Shown one piece after another: positions 7,330 through 50,215 of a stretch of DNA of 64,000 bases. Below the pieces are notes generated by a model. It did no database searches. It saw only the letters and a program-made list of their open reading frames with translations, and was not told the origin of the DNA. Origin of the DNA: Cupriavidus gilardii (GTDB lineage: Bacteria > Pseudomonadota > Gammaproteobacteria > Burkholderiales > Burkholderiaceae); NCBI RefSeq assembly GCF_013314895.1, contig NZ_JABTYE010000011.1, positions 1-64,000 on the forward strand. Reading direction: 5' to 3'. The first letter of the stretch is position 1; each line of letters opens with the position of its first letter. The position numbers and the translations under genes are program-made.

Positions 7330-8867
7330 AGAAACCAGTCATTGCCGCGGTCGCCGGCGTCGTTGTCATCGGTGCCGCCCTCTATGGCGCCTACCACCTC
7401 GGCGTCATGCGCGGCACACAATCTGCGCAGACGGCCGCGCCAGGCGCGGCGTCTGCGCTCAAAGCAGGCGACACCGATCCGAACACTGGCAAGAAGATCC
7501 TGTACTGGCACGATCCGATGGTACCCGGCCAGCGTTTCGACAAGCCAGGCAAGTCCCCTTTCATGGACATGCAGCTCGTGCCCGTTTATGCGGATGGGGA
7601 TGCCGGAGGCAGCGGAGGCAGCGGCGTCACGGTCGACAGCCGTGTCGCGCAGAATTTGGGCATCCGCACGACTGAGGTCAAGGCGAGCCGGATGAGCGCC
7701 GTGCTCGAGGCACCTGGCAATGTCGCCATTGACGAGCGCAGTGTCCAGGTGATCCAGGCGCGGACGAATGCCTTCGTCCAGCACGTAGCGGTCAAAGCGA
7801 CCCTCGACCCGGTCCGGCGCGGCCAAGCACTGGTGACGCTGTACTCGCCCGATTGGGTGGCCGCGCAAGAGGAATATCTTGCCGTGTCCCGCATGGCCGC
7901 GGGTGGCCAATCCGACCTGCGCAGCGCGGCCAAGGCCCGCATGCTGCAGGCTGGCATGACCCCCGGCCAGGTCAGCACCGTCGAATCATCCGGCAAGCTC
8001 CAGCCTACTCTTGGCATTGTGAGCCCCGTCGACGGCCTTGTGACAGAGGTTGCGGTCCGGGAGGGCATGACTGTGTCTCCTGGCATGACCCTGTTTCGCC
8101 TGGCCGACCTGAGCCAGGTCTGGGTGATTGCCGAGGTACCGGAGGGACAAGCCCACGCCATCGCTCCGGGCCGGGCGGTCAAGGTGTCGCCGACCGGCGC
8201 AACCGAGTCAATCGTTGGCAAGGTCGATACCGTCCTGCCCGATGTCAATCCGGCCACGCGAACCATCAAGGTGCGCATTGTCCTGCCCAACAAGGGCAGG
8301 CACCTGTTGCCGGGGATGTTCGTGACGGTCCGGTTTGACAGCGGTGATCAGAAGGAATTGCTGATGATTCCGCTGGAGTCCGTCATCCGCACCGGCCAGC
8401 GCAGCATCGTCATGGTCGATGCGGGCAAGGCCGGCTTTGTGGCAACCGAAGTCAAGACCGGGCGCGAGGCCGCCGGCATGGTCGAGGTGCTGGACGGGCT
8501 GAAAGCGGGGCAGAAAGTGGTCACCTCCGGGCAGTTCCTCATCGATTCGGAAGCCAGCTTGCGTGGCACGGCCGAACGCATGAGCGCCACGACAGCGGCT
8601 TCCGCGCCGGCTGCGGCTGCGCCCGAGCACGAGGGCGTCGGGCGCATCGAGGCCGTGACGCGCGAAGGCCTGACCATCTCGCACGGGCCGATTCCCTCGG
8701 CACAGTGGGGCGCGATGACCATGGATTTCGCCGCGCCGCCTGCCGGCCTGCCGAAGGGGCTCAAGACCGGCGACCGCATCCGGTTCCGCTTCCACCTGGA
8801 CAAGGATGGCCTGGCGATCCTGTCCGCAGTCGAGCCGGCCGGCACCACCCAGGGGGCCAAGCCATGA
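7326..8867 (+). CDS. cusB: Membrane-fusion protein of Cu/Ag efflux with C-terminal CusF-like domain
   Basis: 513 residues: an N-terminal anchor (4-25); a heavy-metal-binding motif YWHDPMVPG...[10 protein letters not shown] (~residues 59-87); the HlyD-like barrel-sandwich and alpha-hairpin core; and from about residue 436 a CusF-like domain ([19 protein letters not shown], then WGAMTMDF, with the Trp/Met pair that binds Cu(I)). It links CusA to CusC and delivers metal to the pump. ATG at 7326 was chosen because it overlaps the cusC stop and gives a membrane leader. The fused CusF domain is additional to the separate cusF gene downstream. Confidence 0.92.
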
Positions 8868-14551: not shown

Positions 14552-17500
14552 ATGATGAAACTCGACCAAGCCCATGCCGAAAGTGATGCGAGATCAACTC
14601 AAGAAAGGAAGAAGGCGGAGGACCTGAACGGCGCGACATCCGTCTTCCGCATTCCCAACATGGATTGCCGCAACGAAGAAGCGGCAATCCGTGCACGGCT
14701 TGCCAAATTGCCAGCGGTAGAGTCCCTTTCGTTCGACCTTCCCCAGCGCCGCCTCACCGTCCGGCATGGGCTACCGAACCCGGGGCCGTTGCTGGAGGCC
14801 CTCCATGAGATCGGCATGCAAGCATCGATGGAGGACGACGGCGAAGCCGCGGGCAACGCCGCTTGCGGATCCGCGTGCGCTGGATCCTGCGCCGGCAGCC
14901 AGAGCGCTGCGTTAGAAGAGTCAAAAGACACATTCACGATTCCAAACATGGATTGCCGCTCCGAAGAGGCGGCGATCCGCGCGCGGCTGGAGCCGTTGGC
15001 CGGCGTCCGGTCGCTCGAGTTCGACCTACCCGCACGCCAGCTGTCTGTCGTCCACACCTTGTCCTCGGTGGAACCCCTGCTGACGGCGTTGCAATCGATC
15101 GGCATGCAGGCAAGGCTGGGCGAAGACACAACTCCTCCGGGCGCGAATTGCGCAGCGACAACGGAGACTGCCTGCGGTCCCTGCGGCACGCCCCCCGTCT
15201 CCTTCGTCCCTGCAGCCACGGGCAATACCACGCAGTTCCTGATCACAAACATGGACTGCCCCACCGAGGAAGCTTTGATCCGCAAGCGCCTAGGCAAGGT
15301 GGAGGGCATCGAACGCCTCGACTTCGACCTGATGAATCGCCGACTGGAGGTGCAACACCGCCTGCCCGATCCGGCACCGGTCCTCGGCGCACTGCGCGAG
15401 ATCGGCATGCATGCCACGGTCGAGCGCGAGGCAGGGGCAAGTTCCAAGGGACGAGCCACCTACTTGATCGAAAAGATGGACTGCCCGACCGAAGAGGCGC
15501 TGCTGCGCAAGGCGTTGGAAGGCATGCCGGGTGTCAGCAGCCTGCAGTTCAACCTGATGAGCCGGACCCTGACCGTCAGCCATTCGCTGAAGGACGAGGT
15601 GCCAATCACAGCGGCCATTGAGCGACTTGGCATGCAGCCGGTGCTGCGCGACCATAGTCGGCCTGCCCCCGCAGTCACGAGGGACTTTGGCACCGGCATT
15701 TCGAAGGCGGAGTGGCTGCGCATGGGGGCCGCCGGCGTGCTGGCGGTTGGCGCGGAAGTCCTCACATTCGCCGGGATGGGTGAATCGGCATGGCCGGTGG
15801 TGGCCGCGTCGCTGGCGGCCATTGCGTTGGGCGGTATCGAGACCCTGAAGAAAGGCTGGATCGCGCTGCGCACGCTGTCACTGAACATGAACCTCCTGAT
15901 GACGATTGCCGTCATCGGTGCCGCTTTGATCGGCCAGTGGCCGGAAGCCGCCGTGGTGATCTGGCTGTTCGCCATCGCGGAGATGATCGAAGCGCTAAGC
16001 CTGGACCGGGCGCGCAACGCGATTCGCAAGCTGATGGACCTGGCGCCGGAAACCGCACTCGTCCGCCAGGACGACGGTCGCTGGCAAGAGGTCAAGGCCG
16101 AGACAGTGCCGCTTGGAGCCGTCGTGCGCGTTCGTCCCGGCGAACGTATCGCCTTGGATGGGGTCGTGGTGTCGGGCGCATCAGCCATCAACCAGGCGCC
16201 CATCACCGGCGAAAGCATGCCCGTGGAAAAGAACCCCGGCGACACGGTGTTCGCGGGCACGATCAATGAGCGCGGCACATTGGAATTCGAAGTGCACTCG
16301 CGCAAGGGAGAGACCACGCTCGACCGTATCGCGCGCTCGGTCCAGGAAGCCCAAGGCCAGCGCGCGCCGACGCAGCGTTTCGTTGATCGTTTCGCGAGCG
16401 TCTATACCCCCTCTGTCTTTGCGCTGGCGATCGCCATTGCCGTGATCCCGCCGCTGTTCTTTGGGGCGCCTTGGTTCGAATGGGTCTACAAGGCGCTGGT
16501 GATGCTGGTGATTGCTTGTCCCTGCGCCCTGGTGATCTCGACACCGGTGACGGTCGTCAGCGGCCTGGCTGCGGCCGCGCGGCGTGGCATCCTCGTCAAG
16601 GGTGGCCTGTACCTGGAGCAAGGGCGTCTGCTGCGCGCGGTGGCACTGGACAAGACTGGCACCCTTACGCACGGCCGCCCGGCGCTGACCGATACGGTAC
16701 CGACGGGCGCGCTCTCGGAGACGGAAGTGCTGCGCATTGCCGCCAGCCTGGATGCGTTGTCCGAACATCCAGTGGCCACAGCTATCGTCAACGCCTACGG
16801 CGACAAGCCGCACGCCTCAGTGCAACGCTTCGAGGCTCTGGCTGGCCGTGGCGTCAAGGGCGACATCGACGGCCAGACCTACTACGTCGGCAACCACCGC
16901 CTGGCAAATGAGCTTGGCGTGGCCAGCGAGCAGGTCCGCAAGCTGCTGGAGAGCCTGGAAGCGCAGGCCAAGACAGCAGTGGTGCTTGCCACCGATAAGC
17001 AGGCACTGGGTGTCCTGGCAGTTGCCGACACGGTCCGGGACAGCAGCAAGCGTGCGGTAGCGGCGCTCAAGCAGTTGGGCGTAGAGCCGGTGATGCTTAC
17101 CGGCGACAACCGCAAGACCGCGGAAGCGGTGGCCGCCCAGGTGGGCATCACCGACGCGCGCGGCGACCTGCTGCCGCACGACAAGTTGGCTGCGATCGCA
17201 GAGCTTGGCGCGAAGGCGCCGGTAGGCATGGTCGGGGATGGCGTCAACGATGCGCCCGCGCTGGCCAAATCGAACATCGGCTTTGCGATGGGCGCTGCTG
17301 GCACCGACACCGCGATCGAGACCGCCGACGTGGCGCTGATGCAGGACGACCTGCGCAAGCTGCCTGAGTTCATCAAGCTGTCGCGCCGGGTGGGTGGCGT
17401 GCTGAAGGCAAACATCGCCTTCGCGATCGGTACCAAGGCGGTCTTCATGGTGCTGGCCTTCACCGGCCATGCCAGCCTGTGGCTCGCGATTCTTGCCGAC

Positions 17501-17587
17501 ATGGGCGCAAGCCTGGCCGTGGTGTTCAACGGACTGCGCCTGCTGGGGACCAGCCCCTCCACTGAGAGTGACCACCATGCGGGCTGA
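14552..17587 (+). CDS. cadA: Zn/Cd/Pb P1B-type ATPase with four N-terminal HMA domains
   Basis: 1011-residue inner-membrane exporter of divalent soft metals. It has four tandem HMA domains (about 31-91, 127-187, 229-289, 303-363), each with a single-Cys motif: MDCRNEE, MDCRSEE, MDCPTEE, MDCPTEE. Cys-rich linkers lie between domains (CGSACAGSC, CGPCG). The catalytic core follows: TGESMP, ACPCALVIS, DKTGTLTHG, SEHPVA, GDGVNDAPAL. CadA/ZntA pumps usually have one or two HMA domains, so this N-terminus is expanded, probably by duplication in pairs. AGAGG precedes adjacent ATGs (14552 or 14555). Overlaps lspA; could equally be called pbrA. Confidence 0.92.
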   Translation: MMKLDQAHAESDARSTQERKKAEDLNGATSVFRIPNMDCRNEEAAIRARLAKLPAVESLSFDLPQRRLTVRHGLPNPGPLLEALHEIGMQASMEDDGEAAGNAACGSACAGSCAGSQSAALEESKDTFTIPNMDCRSEEAAIRARLEPLAGVRSLEFDLPARQLSVVHTLSSVEPLLTALQSIGMQARLGEDTTPPGANCAATTETACGPCGTPPVSFVPAATGNTTQFLITNMDCPTEEALIRKRLGKVEGIERLDFDLMNRRLEVQHRLPDPAPVLGALREIGMHATVEREAGASSKGRATYLIEKMDCPTEEALLRKALEGMPGVSSLQFNLMSRTLTVSHSLKDEVPITAAIERLGMQPVLRDHSRPAPAVTRDFGTGISKAEWLRMGAAGVLAVGAEVLTFAGMGESAWPVVAASLAAIALGGIETLKKGWIALRTLSLNMNLLMTIAVIGAALIGQWPEAAVVIWLFAIAEMIEALSLDRARNAIRKLMDLAPETALVRQDDGRWQEVKAETVPLGAVVRVRPGERIALDGVVVSGASAINQAPITGESMPVEKNPGDTVFAGTINERGTLEFEVHSRKGETTLDRIARSVQEAQGQRAPTQRFVDRFASVYTPSVFALAIAIAVIPPLFFGAPWFEWVYKALVMLVIACPCALVISTPVTVVSGLAAAARRGILVKGGLYLEQGRLLRAVALDKTGTLTHGRPALTDTVPTGALSETEVLRIAASLDALSEHPVATAIVNAYGDKPHASVQRFEALAGRGVKGDIDGQTYYVGNHRLANELGVASEQVRKLLESLEAQAKTAVVLATDKQALGVLAVADTVRDSSKRAVAALKQLGVEPVMLTGDNRKTAEAVAAQVGITDARGDLLPHDKLAAIAELGAKAPVGMVGDGVNDAPALAKSNIGFAMGAAGTDTAIETADVALMQDDLRKLPEFIKLSRRVGGVLKANIAFAIGTKAVFMVLAFTGHASLWLAILADMGASLAVVFNGLRLLGTSPSTESDHHAG

Positions 17588-18071
17588 TCGCAGCATTGGC
17601 CTGGGTTTCGTATTGGCGGCCCTTATCGTGGCGATGGATATCGGGACGAAAGTAGCCATCGTGGCCTGGGTCGACTACGGTGCAAGCCTCGACTGGCTGC
17701 CCGTCCTCAACGTCGTGCATGTGCTGAACCGAGGTGCCGCCTTCAGTTTTCTGCACGGCGCGGGGGGCTGGCAGCGATATTTTTTCATTGGAATTGCCTT
17801 GGCGGCCTCCGCGTTCCTTGTGTACATGATTCGGCGTACTGGTACCACCGATACCGAGCGGATCAGCTACGGACTGATCTTGGGCGGCGCGTTGGCCAAT
17901 ATGATCGACCGGGTCGCACGCGGAGCGGTGGTCGACTGGATCGATCTTCATTGGGGTTCGTACCATTGGCCGGCCTTCAATGTGGCTGACATCGGCATCA
18001 CACTCGGTGCTGCCTTGATCGTGTTCCATGAGCTCTTCGGCAGAATGCAGGCACGCCCAGCCCGCGGATGA
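17577..18071 (+). CDS. lspA: Lipoprotein signal peptidase (LspA; PbrC-like)
   Basis: 164 residues, four membrane helices, aspartyl protease of the inner membrane that cleaves prolipoprotein signals. The two catalytic Asp motifs are visible: NMIDRVARG...VVDWID and FNVADIGITLG. NRGAAFSFL is the family's conserved periplasmic motif. The ATG at 17577 overlaps the ATPase end by 11 bases. lspA copies linked to lead/cadmium ATPases are known (pbrC); the lipoprotein served is unknown. Confidence 0.9.
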   Translation: MRADRSIGLGFVLAALIVAMDIGTKVAIVAWVDYGASLDWLPVLNVVHVLNRGAAFSFLHGAGGWQRYFFIGIALAASAFLVYMIRRTGTTDTERISYGLILGGALANMIDRVARGAVVDWIDLHWGSYHWPAFNVADIGITLGAALIVFHELFGRMQARPARG

Positions 18072-18891
18072 ACACGAAGCATCCGACAGGCAGCCGCTGC
18101 TGACCATCGGCCGCGGCTGGGCCATTTACATCGGACCGATAGAGGCCGGTCGGTTGCACCGACATCAAGCAGCTCAGTTGGCATGGAGCAAACAGGGGAT
18201 GTTGCTCCTCGAAGGGGCCTGGGGCGGATTGCAGGCCCCGGGACATTTTCTTGCGGCCGGGGTGCCGCATCGTCTCGTAGCGGCCGGCCCGGTGCGCATG
18301 GTGTTTCTCGACCCGACCATGCACAGCGTTTGCCCTACTGGCCGTCGGCCCGCAGCCACGATGGCGCCGAGCCCCGTGCAGGCGGATATGCTGGAACATG
18401 AGCTGGACCGCTGGCTGCGAGGCGCAATGCCGTCTGAAACAGCGAATGTGTCACAACCTGCCACGGAGGCTTCGCGTTGGGCTGCGGTCCTCCAGTGGCT
18501 GGAAACGTCGCTGGAGGGACCCGTGCATGTCGCACATGCCGCCGACGCCGTAGGCCTGTCGTCCTCCCGTTTCATGCATTGGTTCGCGGAGGCGAGCGGA
18601 CTGTCGTTCCGGGCGTACGTGCGTTGGTTGCGCCTGCAGCGTGCGGTGCGCACCCTCTCCGATGGTTGTACGCTCACCGAGGCTGCTCATCTCGCCGGCT
18701 TCGCCGACAGCGCGCACCTGACGCGCACCTTCGTGTCCACATTCGGAGTCCGGCCAGCGCCGCTGCGTGGCGCTCGGATTGTCTGTACGGCACAGTCCAA
18801 ACCTCCATTCACACTGCACGGACTTGAATTTGTCGACACCATCCGGCATGGAGGGCGTCAGACAGGAGCCCAACAAAGGGGAAAAGCATGA
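18028..18891 (+). CDS. AraC-family transcriptional regulator
   Basis: 287 residues: an N-terminal cupin-like sensor part (about 30-110, HRHQAAQLAWS, GVPHRLVAAGPV) and a C-terminal double helix-turn-helix (about 165-260; VGLSSSRFMHWF, TEAAHLAGFADSAHLTRTF). The start overlaps lspA by 44 bases and the stop overlaps cadR (ATGA), so it is embedded in the operon. An AraC regulator between lspA and cadR is unusual; its ligand is unknown. His and acidic residues in the sensor part could bind metal but this is untested. Confidence 0.82.
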   Translation: MSSSAECRHAQPADEHEASDRQPLLTIGRGWAIYIGPIEAGRLHRHQAAQLAWSKQGMLLLEGAWGGLQAPGHFLAAGVPHRLVAAGPVRMVFLDPTMHSVCPTGRRPAATMAPSPVQADMLEHELDRWLRGAMPSETANVSQPATEASRWAAVLQWLETSLEGPVHVAHAADAVGLSSSRFMHWFAEASGLSFRAYVRWLRLQRAVRTLSDGCTLTEAAHLAGFADSAHLTRTFVSTFGVRPAPLRGARIVCTAQSKPPFTLHGLEFVDTIRHGGRQTGAQQRGKA

Positions 18892-19313
18892 AGATCGGCA
18901 AACTTGCTCAAACCGCCGGCACCACGGTGGAGACTATTCGCTTCTACGAGCATGAAGGCTTACTGCCGGCGCCGGCTCGTTCCTCTGGAAACTACCGACT
19001 CTACGCTTCCCAGCACCTTGAGCGGTTGGCGTTCATCCGCCATTGCCGCTCGTTGGACATGACCCTGAACGAGATTCGGTCCTTGCTGCGTCTCAAGGAT
19101 GCGCCCCACGAGGACTGTGGAGAGGTCAACGTCCTGCTAGAAGGCCACATTCGACACGTGGCGCGCCGCATACAAGAGTTGATGGCATTGGAACGTGACC
19201 TGAAGCAATTGCGCAGTCAATGCGGTCTGTCGCGAGAGGCCAAGGACTGCGGCATTCTGGAGGGCCTTACGAAAACAGCCCATCAGACACCACAGCTGTT
19301 GGGAGAAGAGTAG
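18888..19313 (+). CDS. cadR: CadR/PbrR MerR-family Pb/Cd/Zn regulator
   Basis: 141 residues: winged helix (1-70), dimer helix, and Cys53, Cys77, Cys112 and Cys121. Allowing for a 2-residue offset, the last three match the PbrR lead-binding cysteines (79, 114, 123). The extra Cys14 of PbrR is absent. Likely controls the six CadR/PbrR-type promoters seen in this window. It is the last gene of the ATPase-lspA-araC-cadR run, so the regulator would be induced together with the pump. Confidence 0.88.
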   Translation: MKIGKLAQTAGTTVETIRFYEHEGLLPAPARSSGNYRLYASQHLERLAFIRHCRSLDMTLNEIRSLLRLKDAPHEDCGEVNVLLEGHIRHVARRIQELMALERDLKQLRSQCGLSREAKDCGILEGLTKTAHQTPQLLGEE

Positions 19314-19560
19314 GGACGCGGATCCCACGAAGGACTACAGGCAGATCCGCCTTCAGCGAACGCTTTCCTGTCGCCGGCGCTAAGCGGCATGTGCGCCACC
19401 CCAAACAGCGCAGGCGGAAGCGTTCCCGACGCGCAAGGCAGCCTCTGCCATAGCCCCGCAGAAAGGCACAGACTCCCAAGTGCGCCTCCCAAGCCGCCAA
19501 AACGTCTGCCGGGAAATGCATGCCTGCGACCAGACGCGACCAGCCAACAAGGTCCACGCC
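19310..19560 (-). pseudogene. Decayed copy of the PAP2 + small membrane protein gene pair
   Basis: Minus-strand frames contain LVGWSRLVAGMHFPADVLAAW (tail of a PAP2 phosphatase; compare GWSRLATGMHFPADVLAGW in the intact gene at 21600). They are followed, with frameshifts, by LPPALFGVAHMPLSAGDRKAFA and LKADLPVV, which match LPPALFGLDGQLGIGDRVAFA and LKADLPVF of the neighbour at 21334-21553. Order and strand are the same as in the better copy. The 5' part of the PAP2 gene is deleted right up to the promoter at 19589. Confidence 0.75.
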
Positions 19561-19588
19561 AGTTTGGGCTAGCCCCTTCTAGTGCTTC

Positions 19589-19619
19589 ATCTAGCACTGT
19601 GTAGCTGCCATAGGGTCAA
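19589..19619 (-). promoter_or_regulatory. CadR/PbrR-type promoter in front of the decayed PAP2 pair
   Basis: Minus strand TTGACC (19619-19614), 19-bp spacer CTATGGCAGCTACACAGTG, CTAGAT (19594-19589). The promoter survives although its gene is almost entirely lost. Confidence 0.7.
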
Positions 19620-19711
19620 GGAAAACGCTACGCGTTTGCCGAACTTTTCTCCTGAAGTGCGGCGCGGGTGCTTTGTTCGTAGCAGGCGGCATATATGCGT
19701 GCAGCCTTGTC

Positions 19712-19742
19712 TTGACCCTGTAGCCACTACATGGTGTCAAAT
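19712..19742 (+). promoter_or_regulatory. CadR/PbrR-type promoter without a recognisable gene
   Basis: TTGACC (19712-19717), 19-bp spacer CTGTAGCCACTACATGGTG with a good dyad, TCAAAT (19737-19742). On the plus strand only a 21-codon ORF (19773) follows before the IS element. The original target gene has probably been lost. Confidence 0.75.
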
Positions 19743-19806
19743 CGCACCGACATATCAGCTGACAGGCTGCCAATGAGAGGCGCTGGGCTAAAGGCGACCG
19801 GCCATA

Positions 19807-19995
19807 TCATTGGGGCATGCCTCGGCACTGCTCTATAACCTGCCGAGCGCGGGATCCAAGCCGACCGATCCAATGTGCTGCAACATCTTCGATTTCACTA
19901 CACTCGAGCCCATGAATTTCTGCATGCCAAACGCCACTCCGAGAAGTAACCGGTAACCGCCATACACTCACAAAAGGTACGGCTCCGTCGCTCAT
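19807..19995 (-). CDS. Hypothetical 62-residue protein, third gene of the IS-split PAP2 operon
   Basis: 62 residues from ATG at 19995 (begins [15 protein letters not shown], ends IEQCRGMPQ); soluble, no family recognised. If the IS3 element is removed, the upstream small membrane protein would end in GRLAFA and its TGA would overlap this ATG (ATGA), as expected for a coupled operon. That junction is the main support for this being a real gene. The IS now separates it from its promoter. Confidence 0.5.
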
Positions 19996-20059
19996 GCAAA
20001 CGCCAACCTGAATCGCCCCGGGTTTTGCGGAGGCTCTCACTCTTGAGAGAATGCGAGCC

Positions 20060-20389
20060 ATGAGCAAGAACAACGCAAACAAGTTTTCCCCGGAAGTGCG
20101 CGAGCGCGCCGTGCGCCTGGTGCAGGAGTCGCGCGGCGAGTACCCGTCGCTGTGGGTGGCGGTCGAGTCCATCGCGCCCAAGATCGGCTGCTCGGCGCAG
20201 ACGCTGCTGACCTGGGTCAAGCGCCACGAAGTCGACAGCGGACAGCGCGAAGGCGTCACCACCAGCGAGCGAGAACGCATCAAGGAGTTGGAGCGGGAGA
20301 ACCGAGAGCTGCGCCGCGCCAACGACATCCTGCGCACTGCCAGCGCTTTTTTCGCGCAGGCGGAGCTCGACCGCAAGCTGAAGTCGTAA
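20060..20389 (+). CDS. IS3-family transposase OrfA
   Basis: 109 residues: a helix-turn-helix (about 8-60, [31 protein letters not shown]) and a leucine-zipper-like helix ([19 protein letters not shown]). Binds the terminal repeats. A T6 run (20347-20352) near the 3' end is a likely -1 frameshift site joining it to OrfB. ATG at 20060 is preferred to 20051 by family alignment. Confidence 0.85.
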
Positions 20390-21300
20390 ACACCTACATC
20401 GACCGGCACCGGGAGGTTTACGGGGTCGAGCCGATCTGCAAGGTGTTGCAGGTTGCCTCGTCGGCCTATCGGCGCCATGCCGCACGGCTGCGTGATCCGT
20501 CACGGCGCAGCGACCGTGCGCGTCGTGATGAACGGCTCATGCCGCAAGTCCAGCGAGTGTGGCAGGAGAACCATCGCGTCTACGGCGCCGACAAGGTCTG
20601 GCGGCAACTGAACCGCGAGGGCGTGACGGTTGCCCGCTGCACGGTCGAGCGATTGATGCGCGCCCAGGGACTGCAAGGTGTGCGGCGCGGCAAGCGGCTG
20701 CGAACGACCATCGCTGACGACGCCGCCAGTCGCCCGGTGGATCGCGTCAACCGGCAGTTCCGGGCCGACCGTCCCAATCAGCTCTGGGTCTCGGACTTCA
20801 CCTACGTCTCGACATGGCAGGGTTGGCTGTACGTGGCCTTCGTCGTCGACGTCTACGCCAGGCGCATCGTCGGCTGGCGCGTGAGCAAATCCATGACGAC
20901 GGACTTCGTGCTCGATGCGCTGGAGCAGGCCCTATACGCTCGCCAGCCTGGCAACGACGGTTCTCTGACCCACCACTCCGATAGGGGATCGCAGTACGTC
21001 AGCATCCGCTATAGCGAACGCCTGGCCGAAGCCGGCATCGAGCCGTCGGTCGGCAGCCGTGGCGACAGTTACGACAACGCCTTGGCCGAGACGATCAATG
21101 GCTTGTACAAGGCCGAGCTGATCCATCGCCGCGCGCCTTGGAAAACCAGGGAATCCGTCGAACTGGCAACACTGGAATGGGTCGCTTGGTTCAACCATAA
21201 GCGCCTGCACTCATCCATCGGCTATATCCCGCCCGCCGAGGCTGAGGCAAACTACTACAACCAACTCGGCAAAACCGCCGACGAGGCCGTTTTACTTTAA
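20386..21300 (+). CDS. IS3-family transposase OrfB (DDE integrase)
   Basis: About 304 residues in the -1 frame relative to OrfA: HTH_21-type region ([12 protein letters not shown]) and a DDE catalytic core with WVSDFTYV (first Asp), HHSDRGSQY (second Asp) and [13 protein letters not shown] (Glu). Normally made as an OrfAB fusion by frameshifting, so no independent start is proposed; 20386 is the first in-frame codon after OrfA overlap. Confidence 0.85.
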
Positions 21301-21333
21301 CCAAACAGCCTCCGCGAAAACCGGGGCGATTCA

Positions 21334-21553
21334 GTCCCTTGCTTACGGCTCTCACGCAATCTGCTAACCATAGGAAAACAGGGAGATCGGCCTTGAGCGC
21401 AAACGCGACACGGTCGCCAATACCAAGCTGTCCATCGAGGCCGAACAGAGCGGGGGGAAGCCAGATATAACCCGCGCCAAGAACTACCGCGCAAACTAAG
21501 CAGGCAAGCATCGAATCGCGTACGATGCGACGTTGTTGCAGACTCCATGGCAT
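21334..21553 (-). pseudogene. Small MAPEG-like membrane protein, interrupted by the IS3 element
   Basis: 73 codons remain before the IS end: MPWSLQQRRI, a hydrophobic helix (15-33), PPALFGLDGQLGIGDRVAFA, and a second helix LPVFLWLADCVRAV. The AFALKADLPVFLWLA pattern recalls MAPEG-family proteins, but the assignment is weak. Removing the IS restores a 78-residue protein ending SKGRLAFA. A decayed second copy lies at 19310-19430. It follows the PAP2 gene by 46 bp on the same strand. Confidence 0.6.
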
Positions 21554-21599
21554 GGTTGCACTCCTCGCCTGTTACCCCGGCACGACGATCCTTGGTACG

Positions 21600-22172
21600 T
21601 TAAGCAGCCCCCTTCAATAACCGGCTCGAAAGAGCCAAACTGCCGAGCGCTACTAACCAGCCCGCCAAGACGTCCGCCGGGAAGTGCATCCCTGTGGCCA
21701 AACGTGACCAGCCGACTAGCGCGACATAGGTAAGTAGAGCCGGTCGCCAGTGGGCGCGGACCATTGGCCATAACCCACCAGCAACCAGAGCGGCGTACGT
21801 GGAATGTCCACTCGGAAGACTGTAGTGCGTCTCAATTGAACCGATTGAATGCCACAGGTGACCGAACACGGCAGCCGGCCGCGGGAAATCGAAGAGAAAC
21901 TTTGATGCTCCAACTACAGCAAATGCCATACCGAATGCGACTACAAATCGTGCCAAGTGAGCCTGTAGCTCCAACGAACGATCTACATCCGAGGTTGTTC
22001 TTGACCAGACCCAAAAGCCTCCCATGACAACAGGCGCGGTCCAATAGTTGCCCAATAGGTAGCTAAACAGCTTGGCCAAAGGCAAGAACATTGCCGGCGT
22101 GCCTTCATTGACCAGTAGGAAGATCTCTCGATTCCAGCCGCTCCAGTCGTAGAGAACAAGTGCCCAACTCAT
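21600..22172 (-). CDS. pbrB: PAP2-family undecaprenyl-pyrophosphate phosphatase (PbrB-like)
   Basis: 190 residues, about six membrane helices, with the three PAP2 catalytic motifs: KFLFDFPRP, YSLPSGHS and GWSRLATGMHFPAD. These enzymes release inorganic phosphate from lipid pyrophosphate in the periplasm; PbrB is known to support lead resistance by precipitating Pb as phosphate. I chose ATG at 22172 (MSWALVL); an ATG at 22199 adds 9 residues with no family match. The CadR/PbrR-type promoter at 22449-22479 points toward it over ~275 bases. Confidence 0.82.
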   Translation of the reverse strand: MSWALVLYDWSGWNREIFLLVNEGTPAMFLPLAKLFSYLLGNYWTAPVVMGGFWVWSRTTSDVDRSLELQAHLARFVVAFGMAFAVVGASKFLFDFPRPAAVFGHLWHSIGSIETHYSLPSGHSTYAALVAGGLWPMVRAHWRPALLTYVALVGWSRLATGMHFPADVLAGWLVALGSLALSSRLLKGAA

Positions 22173-22448
22173 CGGATCACCATCCTCCGCCCCTCGCATC
22201 CCACCATACGGTAAGGACTCGCGATATGGGAGCGTTGGGTTCTATTGTTCGCAATCGTGCGAACGCCTGAAAGCCGAGGCGGAGGGTCGCCCGAAGTTGT
22301 GCGCACCTCACGTAAGCGCATTGCACCCTCCCGCATCTTGCACGCGGCTGCACTTGGCTCGACCCCATACGAGCAATCCGCCGGAAGTCCCCATCGGTTT
22401 GTGTTGCGCTGACTCAAAGTAGGTCGCCAGTATTGACTAACGTTGTTA

Positions 22449-22479
22449 TTTCTACGCCCTCTAGCGGCTATAGAGTCAA
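22449..22479 (-). promoter_or_regulatory. CadR/PbrR-type promoter/operator between pbrT and the PAP2 operon
   Basis: Minus strand TTGACT (22479-22474), 19-bp spacer CTATAGCCGCTAGAGGGCG, TAGAAA (22454-22449). The dyad CTATAG...CTAGAGGG is close to the PbrR site. It points leftward to the PAP2 operon and lies ~110 bp from the pbrT start, so it may serve both. The 22173-22448 interval holds no convincing gene. Confidence 0.78.
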
Positions 22480-22589
22480 GCGCGATTCCCCATACTTCCA
22501 TCACCAAGATGGGTCGCTCGCGCAAACGATATGAATTACAATCATTCGCATTTGTCCGCGAAAACTGCCGCCCGCCCGGCGTGTTCCTC

Positions 22590-24515
22590 ATGCAAGCCCT
22601 GCGCATCCTCTCCCTCGTTCTAGTCTCCTTGGCGCTATCCGTCTCGACGGCTTTGGCCGAGCCTCTATCCACGCAAGACAAGGCCAAGCAAGTCTGGCAA
22701 TTGCTGGACTACCTTGCCGTTGACTATGGCGGTTCAGTCAACGATGGCCGCATCACCAATGAGGCTGAATATGCCGAGATGCAAGAGTTCGCGCAGACGG
22801 TCGCGCGACAGCTAGGCGAATTGCCGCCAGGACCCGCCTCCGAACAACTAGGCAAGGAAGCTGGCGCATTGCGTTTGTCCATCGCAGCGAAGGCCTCGCC
22901 AGAAACTGTCGCCGAACTGGCTCGGAAGTTGGCCAGCGGCGTCCTCACAGCCTATCCGGTTCCTATGGCACCAAGCAAGGCGCCTGATTTGCAGAACGGG
23001 GCGAAGCTCTATCAAAGCCATTGTGCGTCCTGCCACGGCGTATCCGGTAACGCGGACGGCCCCCTCGCAGCGAAACTCAACCCGCCCCCGATTGCGCTGG
23101 CCGACCACGCGCGCGCGCAGGAACGCAGCGTCTTTGCCTTGCAACAGATCATCACGCGCGGCGTGGAGGGAACATCGATGCCGGGCTTTGCCCATCTCTC
23201 CGAAGACGACCGATGGGCTCTGGCCTATTTTGCTTCGACGCTGTCTTATTCAGATACTGACCGCCAGGCGGGCGCCAAGCTTTGGACTGCTGAACCGGGG
23301 CTGCGCGCGGCGGTTCCCACGCTCGACAAGCTTAGCCAGACCTCGGAGGCGGCACTTGCTAAATTCGTGGGTGCACAGACCTCTCGTGATGGTCTTGCAT
23401 ACCTGCGAAGCTCACCGGACGTACTGGCCGCATCGACCACCGATAGTCTCTCAATCGCCAAGGAAAAGCTGAAGGAAAGTGTCACTGCGCTTGACAAGGG
23501 AGACACGCGGGCCGCATCGCAACTGGCTTTGTCCGCATATCTTGATGGGTTCGAACCAGTTGAGCCTGCGTTGGCTGCCAAGAACCAGGCTCTCTTCCTG
23601 GACATCGAGAAGACGATGGGACTCTATCGAAATGCCGTCGCGAATGGCCAGGCAGAGCGCGCGCATGACATCGCAGCGCAACTGCAGTCAAGGCTGGACG
23701 AGGCGCAGGAAGCGCTCGCAGGCGCCAATGACGCATTCTCGACCTTCCTTGGCGCCTTTACGATCCTGCTTCGTGAAGGGCTTGAAGCGCTGTTGGTAGT
23801 CGTAGCCATGCTGGCGTTCCTCAAGAAGGCCAATCGCACTGACGTCCTTCCCTACGTTCACGCGGGTTGGGTCACTGCGCTGGGAGCCGGTGGATTGACG
23901 TGGGCGGTAGCTACCTACGTCGTTGATCTGAGCGGCGCTAGTCGCGAAATGACCGAAGGCTTCTCCGCGGTCTTCGCGGCGGTCGTCCTACTCGGCGTCG
24001 GCATGTGGATGCACCAGAAGAGTCTGGCGGGACGCTGGCAATCGTACGTGAAGGAAAAGCTGTCGTCGGCATTGAACAGGAAATCGGCGTTTATGCTCTT
24101 CCTGCTATCGTTCGTCACGGTCTACCGGGAAGTATTTGAGACCGTGCTCTTCTACGCGGCCCTGTGGTCCGATGGCAACGGTGCCTACATGCTCGCGGGA
24201 CTCGGTTGCGGTATTGCTGTGCTGGCAGTGATTGCGTTTCTGCTCCTGCGATCGACGGCGCGTTTGCCGATTCGACAATTTTTCGCGTTCAGCTCCGCCT
24301 TGGTTGGCGTGCTTGCCGTGGTCCTGATTGGCAAGGGCGTGGCGGCACTGCAGAAAGTTGGCCTGTTGCAAGTGACGCCGCTCTCTATGCCGCGTATCGA
24401 TGTCTTGGGCGTTTACCCCTCTGTGCAAACCATTGCCGCGCAAGTGGCTATTCTCCTCATCATCGTTGCCAGCGTGACCTATAACTTGCGATCGCAACGT
24501 ACCGCGAGGGTGTGA
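22590..24515 (+). CDS. pbrT: Pb(II)/Fe uptake permease PbrT (FTR1 family with cytochrome c domain)
   Basis: 641 residues. Signal peptide (1-23), a periplasmic region with a cytochrome c haem site CASCHG (145-150), then an FTR1 permease with seven-helix layout. The two Glu motifs of iron permeases are present: LLREGLEALL and VYREVFETVLF. PbrT imports Pb2+; it is thought to work with phosphate precipitation. ATG at 22590 gives a clean leader; an upstream in-frame start at 22443 adds only low-quality sequence. Divergent from the PAP2 gene, as pbrT is from the pbr operon in known lead clusters. Confidence 0.9.
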   Translation: MQALRILSLVLVSLALSVSTALAEPLSTQDKAKQVWQLLDYLAVDYGGSVNDGRITNEAEYAEMQEFAQTVARQLGELPPGPASEQLGKEAGALRLSIAAKASPETVAELARKLASGVLTAYPVPMAPSKAPDLQNGAKLYQSHCASCHGVSGNADGPLAAKLNPPPIALADHARAQERSVFALQQIITRGVEGTSMPGFAHLSEDDRWALAYFASTLSYSDTDRQAGAKLWTAEPGLRAAVPTLDKLSQTSEAALAKFVGAQTSRDGLAYLRSSPDVLAASTTDSLSIAKEKLKESVTALDKGDTRAASQLALSAYLDGFEPVEPALAAKNQALFLDIEKTMGLYRNAVANGQAERAHDIAAQLQSRLDEAQEALAGANDAFSTFLGAFTILLREGLEALLVVVAMLAFLKKANRTDVLPYVHAGWVTALGAGGLTWAVATYVVDLSGASREMTEGFSAVFAAVVLLGVGMWMHQKSLAGRWQSYVKEKLSSALNRKSAFMLFLLSFVTVYREVFETVLFYAALWSDGNGAYMLAGLGCGIAVLAVIAFLLLRSTARLPIRQFFAFSSALVGVLAVVLIGKGVAALQKVGLLQVTPLSMPRIDVLGVYPSVQTIAAQVAILLIIVASVTYNLRSQRTARV

Positions 24516-50184: not shown

Positions 50185-50215
50185 AGTAAATAGTCTGTAG
50201 TGACTACAGGGTCAA
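50185..50215 (-). promoter_or_regulatory. CadR/PbrR-type promoter upstream of the zinc-ribbon gene
   Basis: Minus strand TTGACC (50215-50210), 19-bp spacer CTGTAGTCACTACAGACTA with the dyad CTGTAGT-C-ACTACAG, TTTACT (50190-50185). The best dyad of the six sites. Confidence 0.85.

Follow-up and report, generated by a model that had tools for sequence, protein, structure and literature searches.

How did a PAP2 phosphatase gene, a small membrane-protein frame cut by an insertion sequence (IS) and a 62-residue open frame come to follow one another on the minus strand of a Cupriavidus gilardii contig, and do they form one operon? We examined this locus in a stretch of 64,000 nucleotides (NZ_JABTYE010000011.1, positions 1 to 64,000; hereafter the window), for which the initial annotation had proposed a three-gene unit of lead-resistance type. 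We consider it highly probable that the locus is a decaying PbrB-type unit of a Pb/Cd cluster: a PAP2-MAPEG gene pair was duplicated, one copy decayed, and the MAPEG gene of the other was broken by a deletion beside the element. The MAPEG relatives are, within the same reading, most likely protective membrane enzymes that use glutathione.

In this reconstruction, a CadR/PbrR-type promoter would once have driven a PAP2 phosphatase gene directly followed by the gene of a MAPEG membrane protein, and the unit would have been duplicated before one copy rotted. The loss of 1262 bp beside an ISRme15-type element would then have taken nearly all of an OmpH gene together with the second half of the MAPEG gene, and would have placed an unrelated 62-codon frame next to the MAPEG stump. 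In a functional cluster, the metal would be exported by the P-type ATPase, and the PAP2 phosphatase would free periplasmic phosphate, trapping lead; for PbrA and PbrB, export of lead by the ATPase and its precipitation by phosphatase-freed phosphate are described in part of PMC3431237.

The truncated gene belongs to the MAPEG family

The membrane-protein frame of 78 residues does run into the element, as the initial annotation stated, but it was not cut at its last codons: the native part is 73 codons long and the break lies mid-protein, given that uncut copies in the same island have 159 aa and distant relatives up to ~180 aa. The 73 native residues are the exact start of a 159-aa protein in C. 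oxalaticus T2, where it is annotated as MAPEG, and in C. campinensis MJ1. Neither the 73-residue fragment alone nor the 62-aa frame gave a Pfam match, and the identity was therefore taken from the longer relatives. The 159-aa relative matched PF01124 (E 4.9e-8, 33.6 bits against a cut-off of 23.4), with the match beginning only at residue 73, and the three MAPEG relatives searched against NCBIfam gave no match.

The AlphaFold2 model of a relative (locus L015; the relative was modelled, not the window fragment) comprised five long helices, with a mean predicted local distance difference test (pLDDT) value of 95.5. In a fold search with this model, the 37 best PDB matches were all MAPEG entries (LTC4 synthase, MGST2 and PGES-1), with a probability of 1.00 and weak E values (0.013–0.18), and a PDB sequence search with the MAPEG alignment A2 gave no match. 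Judged from these comparisons of sequence and predicted fold, the truncated frame is a MAPEG member, so that the membrane partner, taken as undescribed at the outset, has a known family.

A probable deletion beside the insertion element

Elements near-identical to the one in the window are annotated as ISRme15 family in the T2 and QJ1 loci (L001 and L004). The window copy is flanked by ACC and GTC, with no 3-bp target duplication. Two element-free alleles were available, in Cupriavidus sp. 2SB (L029) and C. necator SHC 2-3 (L031); both flanks match the window there at 99.8–100%, and in both alleles 1262 bp that are absent from the window lie between the two break points. This segment contains the second half of the MAPEG gene and, on the opposite strand, almost all of OmpH. 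The proposed joining of the membrane-protein TGA to the next ATG on removal of the element was not confirmed, and the three genes are contiguous in neither of the two IS-free alleles.

Simple insertions of these ISRme15-type (IS3 family) elements leave 3-bp duplications at two sites, one in L001 and one inside OmpH that is common to L002, L030 and L101. The window copy differs in having no duplication and in replacing 1262 bp, and duplications are also missing in L004/L097 and in L098. The break points are different as well: mid-MAPEG in the window, near the MAPEG end in L098, and inside PAP2 in L004 and L097. L004 and L098 retain the OmpH insertion site as their other flank, so that one side was deleted there. 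In the window that site is found at neither flank, which implies two deletions or, alternatively, one deletion together with a separate insertion. Different deletions beside the same ISRme15-type element in L098, L004 and L097 mark the spot as a repeated rearrangement point. The loss of the 1262 bp is most likely due to deletion next to the element; ISRme15 is known to transpose in zinc-selected C. metallidurans, as reported in part of PMC4803752.

The duplicated pair and its promoters

The PAP2 gene upstream of the MAPEG stump is intact on the minus strand, as first annotated (Table 1). The K-x6-RP, PSGH and SR-x5-H-x3-D motifs, which we take to be the PAP2 motifs, are readable in its translation, and the protein shares ~57% identity with its PAP2 counterparts in L106 and L107. 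NCBIfam undecaprenyl-diphosphatase models matched it far under their cut-offs. The surrounding genes are those of a pbr-type cluster, and a CadR/PbrR-type promoter, recognised by pattern only, precedes the gene.

A decayed second copy of the PAP2/membrane pair with its own CadR/PbrR-type promoter had been placed at 19310-19560, and we recovered it at 19331-19551, behind a promoter at 19619 on the minus strand. It keeps the order and strand of the main copy. Alignments of the remnants were judged against 1000 dinucleotide shuffles, and 0/1000 reached the score of either part; the decayed copy is real. The three promoters of the window agree with the PpbrA layout given in the portion of PMC3431237 that describes it (TTGACT with a 19-bp spacer). 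The pattern found 3 sites against 0.00 expected in shuffles, a figure that flatters, as the pattern was written after the sites had been seen.

MAPEG genes in metal-resistance clusters of other proteobacteria

A MAPEG alignment built on plasmid-borne seed proteins recovered 194 relatives from a genome collection; the counts below refer to the best 80 of them. Seven marker genes (CadR, CDF, LspA, FTR1, P-type ATPase, CzcA and PAP2) were searched within 5 kb of each MAPEG gene. At least one marker was present in 69/80 loci and at least two in 65/80. CadR (58 loci), CDF (45) and LspA (41, with matches at 30–50% identity that may include housekeeping copies) were the most frequent, followed by FTR1 (36), P-type ATPase (27), CzcA (26) and PAP2 (6). 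This company was seen in alpha-, beta- and gammaproteobacteria.

Generic MAPEG genes served as controls. In 27 of 30 genomes, one best-scoring generic MAPEG gene was taken (L088, with no match, and L019 and L057, with weak matches only, were left out); none of the 27 had any marker within ~6 kb, two of the flanks (L142 and L161) being shortened by contig ends, whereas 23 of the 27 subfamily members in those genomes had at least two. Another 20 MAPEG loci, drawn from 20 of 210 matching genomes in the window's family, had no marker in ~20 kb (0/20).

The subfamily could also be a passenger of metal islands with no role in metal tolerance, given that such islands are mobile and gather genes and that several loci are near-identical copies, the 80 loci collapsing into 48 clusters when grouped at 90% identity (with X in place of any stop within a match). 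The association survives this dereplication, with at least one marker in 39/48 clusters and at least two in 36/48. Moreover, LspA lies directly upstream of MAPEG, on the same strand and within 200 bp, in 23/80 loci and 11/48 clusters, from Brevundimonas to Stagnimonas. We regard a mere passenger as a possible but clearly less probable explanation.

In one type of cluster (e.g. in Rhizobium and Bradyrhizobium) we found no PAP2 match, and a BacA-type undecaprenyl pyrophosphate phosphatase was present instead (L018). Given the few PAP2 neighbours and these PAP2-free clusters, the partnership of MAPEG is with metal clusters, with CadR, CDF, LspA and FTR1 as the usual neighbours, and not with PAP2. 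The undescribed module suspected in the initial annotation was not the three-gene operon, yet it may exist in another form, as a MAPEG subfamily inside the metal clusters of many proteobacteria. We give even chances to the proposal that this distinct five-helix subfamily is an overlooked component of proteobacterial Pb/Cd/Zn clusters, often directly behind signal peptidase II of PbrC type, that links membrane glutathione chemistry to metal export and phosphate trapping.

We found no description of a link between MAPEG and metal-resistance clusters in the open-licence library searched. The relevant part of PMC10434023 describes a marine plasmid with a MAPEG cassette, which lies outside any metal cluster and was interpreted there as protection against xenobiotics or oxidative stress, and the pbr model, as set out in the part of PMC3431237 consulted, gives no role for PbrT, PbrC and PbrD and mentions no glutathione enzyme. 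The link is worth a bench test and, if true, would add a testable part to such clusters.

The BacA-type gene of L018 (15092-16060) has counterparts in L108, L109, L113 and L116 (25–26% identity to the L018 protein), likewise by signal peptidase II in pbr-like clusters with no PAP2 match; it is possibly a non-homologous replacement of PbrB.

The PAP2-MAPEG pair in Cupriavidus

The pair in two copies had been taken as a sign of a functional unit. The window does contain, in two places, a PbrB-type phosphatase gene with a membrane partner behind it, but the arrangement is not widespread. In a survey of PbrT-like FTR1 genes (27 loci from 22/398 genomes of the window's family), MAPEG was present in only 8/27 loci, the window included, and all eight belong to this island family or to its cousin in Cupriavidus sp. 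P-10. No MAPEG was found in the CH34-type loci among the 27 (such as L106 and L107); the other 19 loci include a copy of this island with MAPEG deleted (L097) and two short contig pieces (L104 and L120). Class-wide searches returned too few genomes to be informative (PAP2 in 2/274 genomes; the MAPEG alignment in 3/185, own genome included).

We next consider whether the pair could still function as a unit in the Cupriavidus island, with an active, if shortened, MAPEG protein. The 159-aa form, the longest MAPEG of this island, stands behind PAP2 in 7 records (L001, L002, L028, L029, L030, L031 and L101; L095, L096, L099 and L100 repeat the same contigs and are outside this count), and a promoter was found before the pair in the window and in L028-L031. 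However, the 159-aa form ends close to where the last helix is predicted to begin in the L015 model (151-177), a helix that is present in most of the longer relatives. In Cupriavidus sp. P-10 the pair is found in decayed form only, and C. pauculus (L005) gave no MAPEG match behind PAP2, with only ~50 bp of DNA similar to the MAPEG start. A pair that still works is therefore improbable; because even the uncut island MAPEG of the 7 records is without the last helix, the pair looks like a relic.

Additional MAPEG sequences were observed behind CadR in two of these strains: a 64-codon MAPEG-like piece (43%) in C. pauculus (L005, 2761-2952) and a second, full-length MAPEG gene (45% identity) in Cupriavidus sp. 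P-10 (L013, 7863-8525). The latter adjoins what resembles, by eye, a CcdA/DsbD-type redox group.

Predicted role of the MAPEG subfamily

In the alignment A3, which holds 46 of the 80 relatives, a conserved Asn (90% or more), a Glu, an Arg, a Tyr and a further Arg, the last identified by eye, are kept. These positions are candidate glutathione-pocket residues. The window MAPEG lost its second half, including the Asn/Glu and Arg/Tyr positions, and is thus not expected to work. Compared with the MAPEG family at large (microsomal glutathione transferases, LTC4 synthase), the subfamily shares these positions, the PF01124 match above cut-off of its 159-aa member and the fold predicted for L015. It differs in its five predicted helices, the first being outside the Pfam match, in one arginine position discussed below and in its genomic place in metal clusters, the window copy being in addition truncated.

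Family membership, fold and genomic context together suggest that the MAPEG relatives would protect the membrane in metal stress, most likely as glutathione-dependent transferases of the membrane or as peroxidases acting on lipid hydroperoxides. The kept Asn, Glu, Arg and Tyr, together with the precedent of a Synechocystis MAPEG protein that protects against lipid peroxidation (part of PMC6798054), make a glutathione-dependent peroxidase or transferase the likeliest candidate role.

Another substrate could be imagined, since genes for S-adenosylmethionine (SAM)-dependent methyltransferases recur near the subfamily (L007 and L009), one family, with a methyltransferase as its representative, being present within 7 kb in 19/86 loci, and a cytochrome P450 gene has been annotated close to MAPEG in records of Microvirga and Roseomonas: the MAPEG proteins would then act on organometals or on the products of these neighbouring enzymes. 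The methyltransferase family is missing from most loci, and we hold this to be quite improbable.

Several results weigh against the interpretation of the MAPEG subfamily and of the deletion given here. An arginine that stands seven residues ahead of the conserved Asn in all nine generic MAPEG proteins used for comparison is absent from the subfamily, whose use of glutathione is therefore not assured. An hhalign comparison of its profile with that of generic MAPEG gave a weak match (probability 31.7%, E 0.00049), and the PF01124 search of the L088 genome gave no match. None of the seven markers was within 5 kb in 11/80 loci, ten of them being more distant relatives (L070 onward), and the relatives examined were the best 80 of 194 from a scan seeded with plasmid-borne MAPEG proteins. 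CadR/PbrR-type sites were present up to 1.5 kb upstream of MAPEG in 7/80 loci, 4 of them in the Cupriavidus island, so that co-regulation is not supported for most loci. Finally, the window's own genome shows one copy of the element only, although it is a draft assembly of 60 contigs.

The 62-residue frame

The third gene of the proposed operon is present as an open frame (19807-19995), but in the IS-free alleles L029 and L031 the uncut MAPEG gene ends ~1.0 kb away from it. Its expected conservation was not found either: identical copies occur in 3 plasmid records and at 100% in 7/93 loci, the window's own contig among them, and two further short matches had E values of 0.19 and 0.46. No diverged homologue was found in the plasmid collection and the 93 loci. 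The frame starts where OmpH starts on the opposite strand, below the promoter-like site that faces OmpH (19712, plus strand); a leader peptide of OmpH was considered and ruled out, as the frame is on the wrong strand. We judged the frame spurious, its position beside the MAPEG stump being an accident of the deletion. A lead operon of PAP2, a 78-aa membrane protein and a 62-aa protein is thus barely credible: the frames are consecutive on one strand, but 1262 bp with an opposite OmpH gene separate the break points in both IS-free alleles, the last frame is known from identical island copies only, and the membrane frame is a MAPEG stump. The window serves as a warning that genes may come to look like an operon through an insertion element and a deletion beside it.

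Gene content of the surrounding cluster

The region is a pbr/cad-type metal-resistance cluster on a Cupriavidus-type mobile island, and all the plasmid-collection records similar to 21335-22600 (13/13) belong to Cupriavidus. The pbr lead operon of Cupriavidus metallidurans CH34 pMOL30 (pbrTRABCD) has in common with it a CadR/PbrR regulator, an FTR1-type PbrT, a P-type ATPase, a PAP2 phosphatase, a signal peptidase II and the promoter layout. PbrB and PbrC are fused in that operon according to part of PMC3431237, whereas the window encodes the PAP2 phosphatase and the signal peptidase separately. The window also has extra genes for an AraC-type regulator and OmpH (PF03938 E 2.6e-29 for the intact OmpH gene), and the MAPEG stump behind PAP2, of which we found no counterpart in the CH34-type loci examined.

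Table 1. Features of the PAP2-MAPEG locus and its cluster, in positions of the window.
Feature	Position	Strand	Basis and remarks
Zn/Cd/Pb-type P-type ATPase, four HMA domains	14552..17587	+	PF00122; PF00403 in four stretches; TIGR01525 above cut-off
Signal peptidase II, PbrC type	17577..18071	+	PF01252 E 6.4e-37 on frame from 17526; start according to annotation of L001 and L004
CadR/PbrR regulator	18888..19313	+	TIGR02047, 178 bits against a cut-off of 151.45
Second MAPEG gene, remnant	19331..19421	-	Score 59, shuffle maximum 46
Second PAP2 gene, remnant (3' part)	19438..19551	-	Score 94, shuffle maximum 47; 84% over 64-65 bp to PAP2 of P-10 and C. pauculus
CadR/PbrR-type promoter of decayed pair	19589..19619	-	TTGACC-19-CTAGAT, by pattern
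CadR/PbrR-type promoter facing truncated OmpH	19712..19742	+	TTGACC-19-TCAAAT, by pattern
62-residue open frame, judged spurious	19807..19995	-	Identical island copies only; opposite OmpH leader; no NCBIfam or Pfam match
OmpH-family gene, first bases only, rest gone	19994..20008	+	OmpH start of L001 (5242) maps to 19994; alignment ends at 20008
IS3-type element, ISRme15 family	20009..21333	+	Terminal inverted repeats; no target duplication; replaces 1262 bp
MAPEG-family gene, 5' part (73 codons), broken at insertion element	21335..21553	-	100% identical to start of 159-aa MAPEG protein
PAP2 phosphatase, stand-alone PbrB type	21600..22172	-	Intact; PF01569 E 2.7e-17, 63.2 bits against a cut-off of 27.2; longer start at 22199 possible
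CadR/PbrR-type promoter of PAP2-MAPEG pair	22449..22479	-	TTGACT-19-TAGAAA, by pattern
Cytochrome c / FTR1 permease, PbrT type	22590..24515	+	PF03239 and PF13442 on longer frame from 22443; start as annotated in L001

In less deleted alleles (L001, 7474-7695; L002, ~8420-8650), a remnant behind MAPEG resembles, by eye, the third HMA domain of the P-type ATPase of the window, and on that visual likeness it may be the trace of an older duplication in the island. Finally, a match to a looser MerR-type promoter pattern (TTGACC, 19-bp spacer, TTTACT) was observed at 50215 on the minus strand, outside the locus described here.

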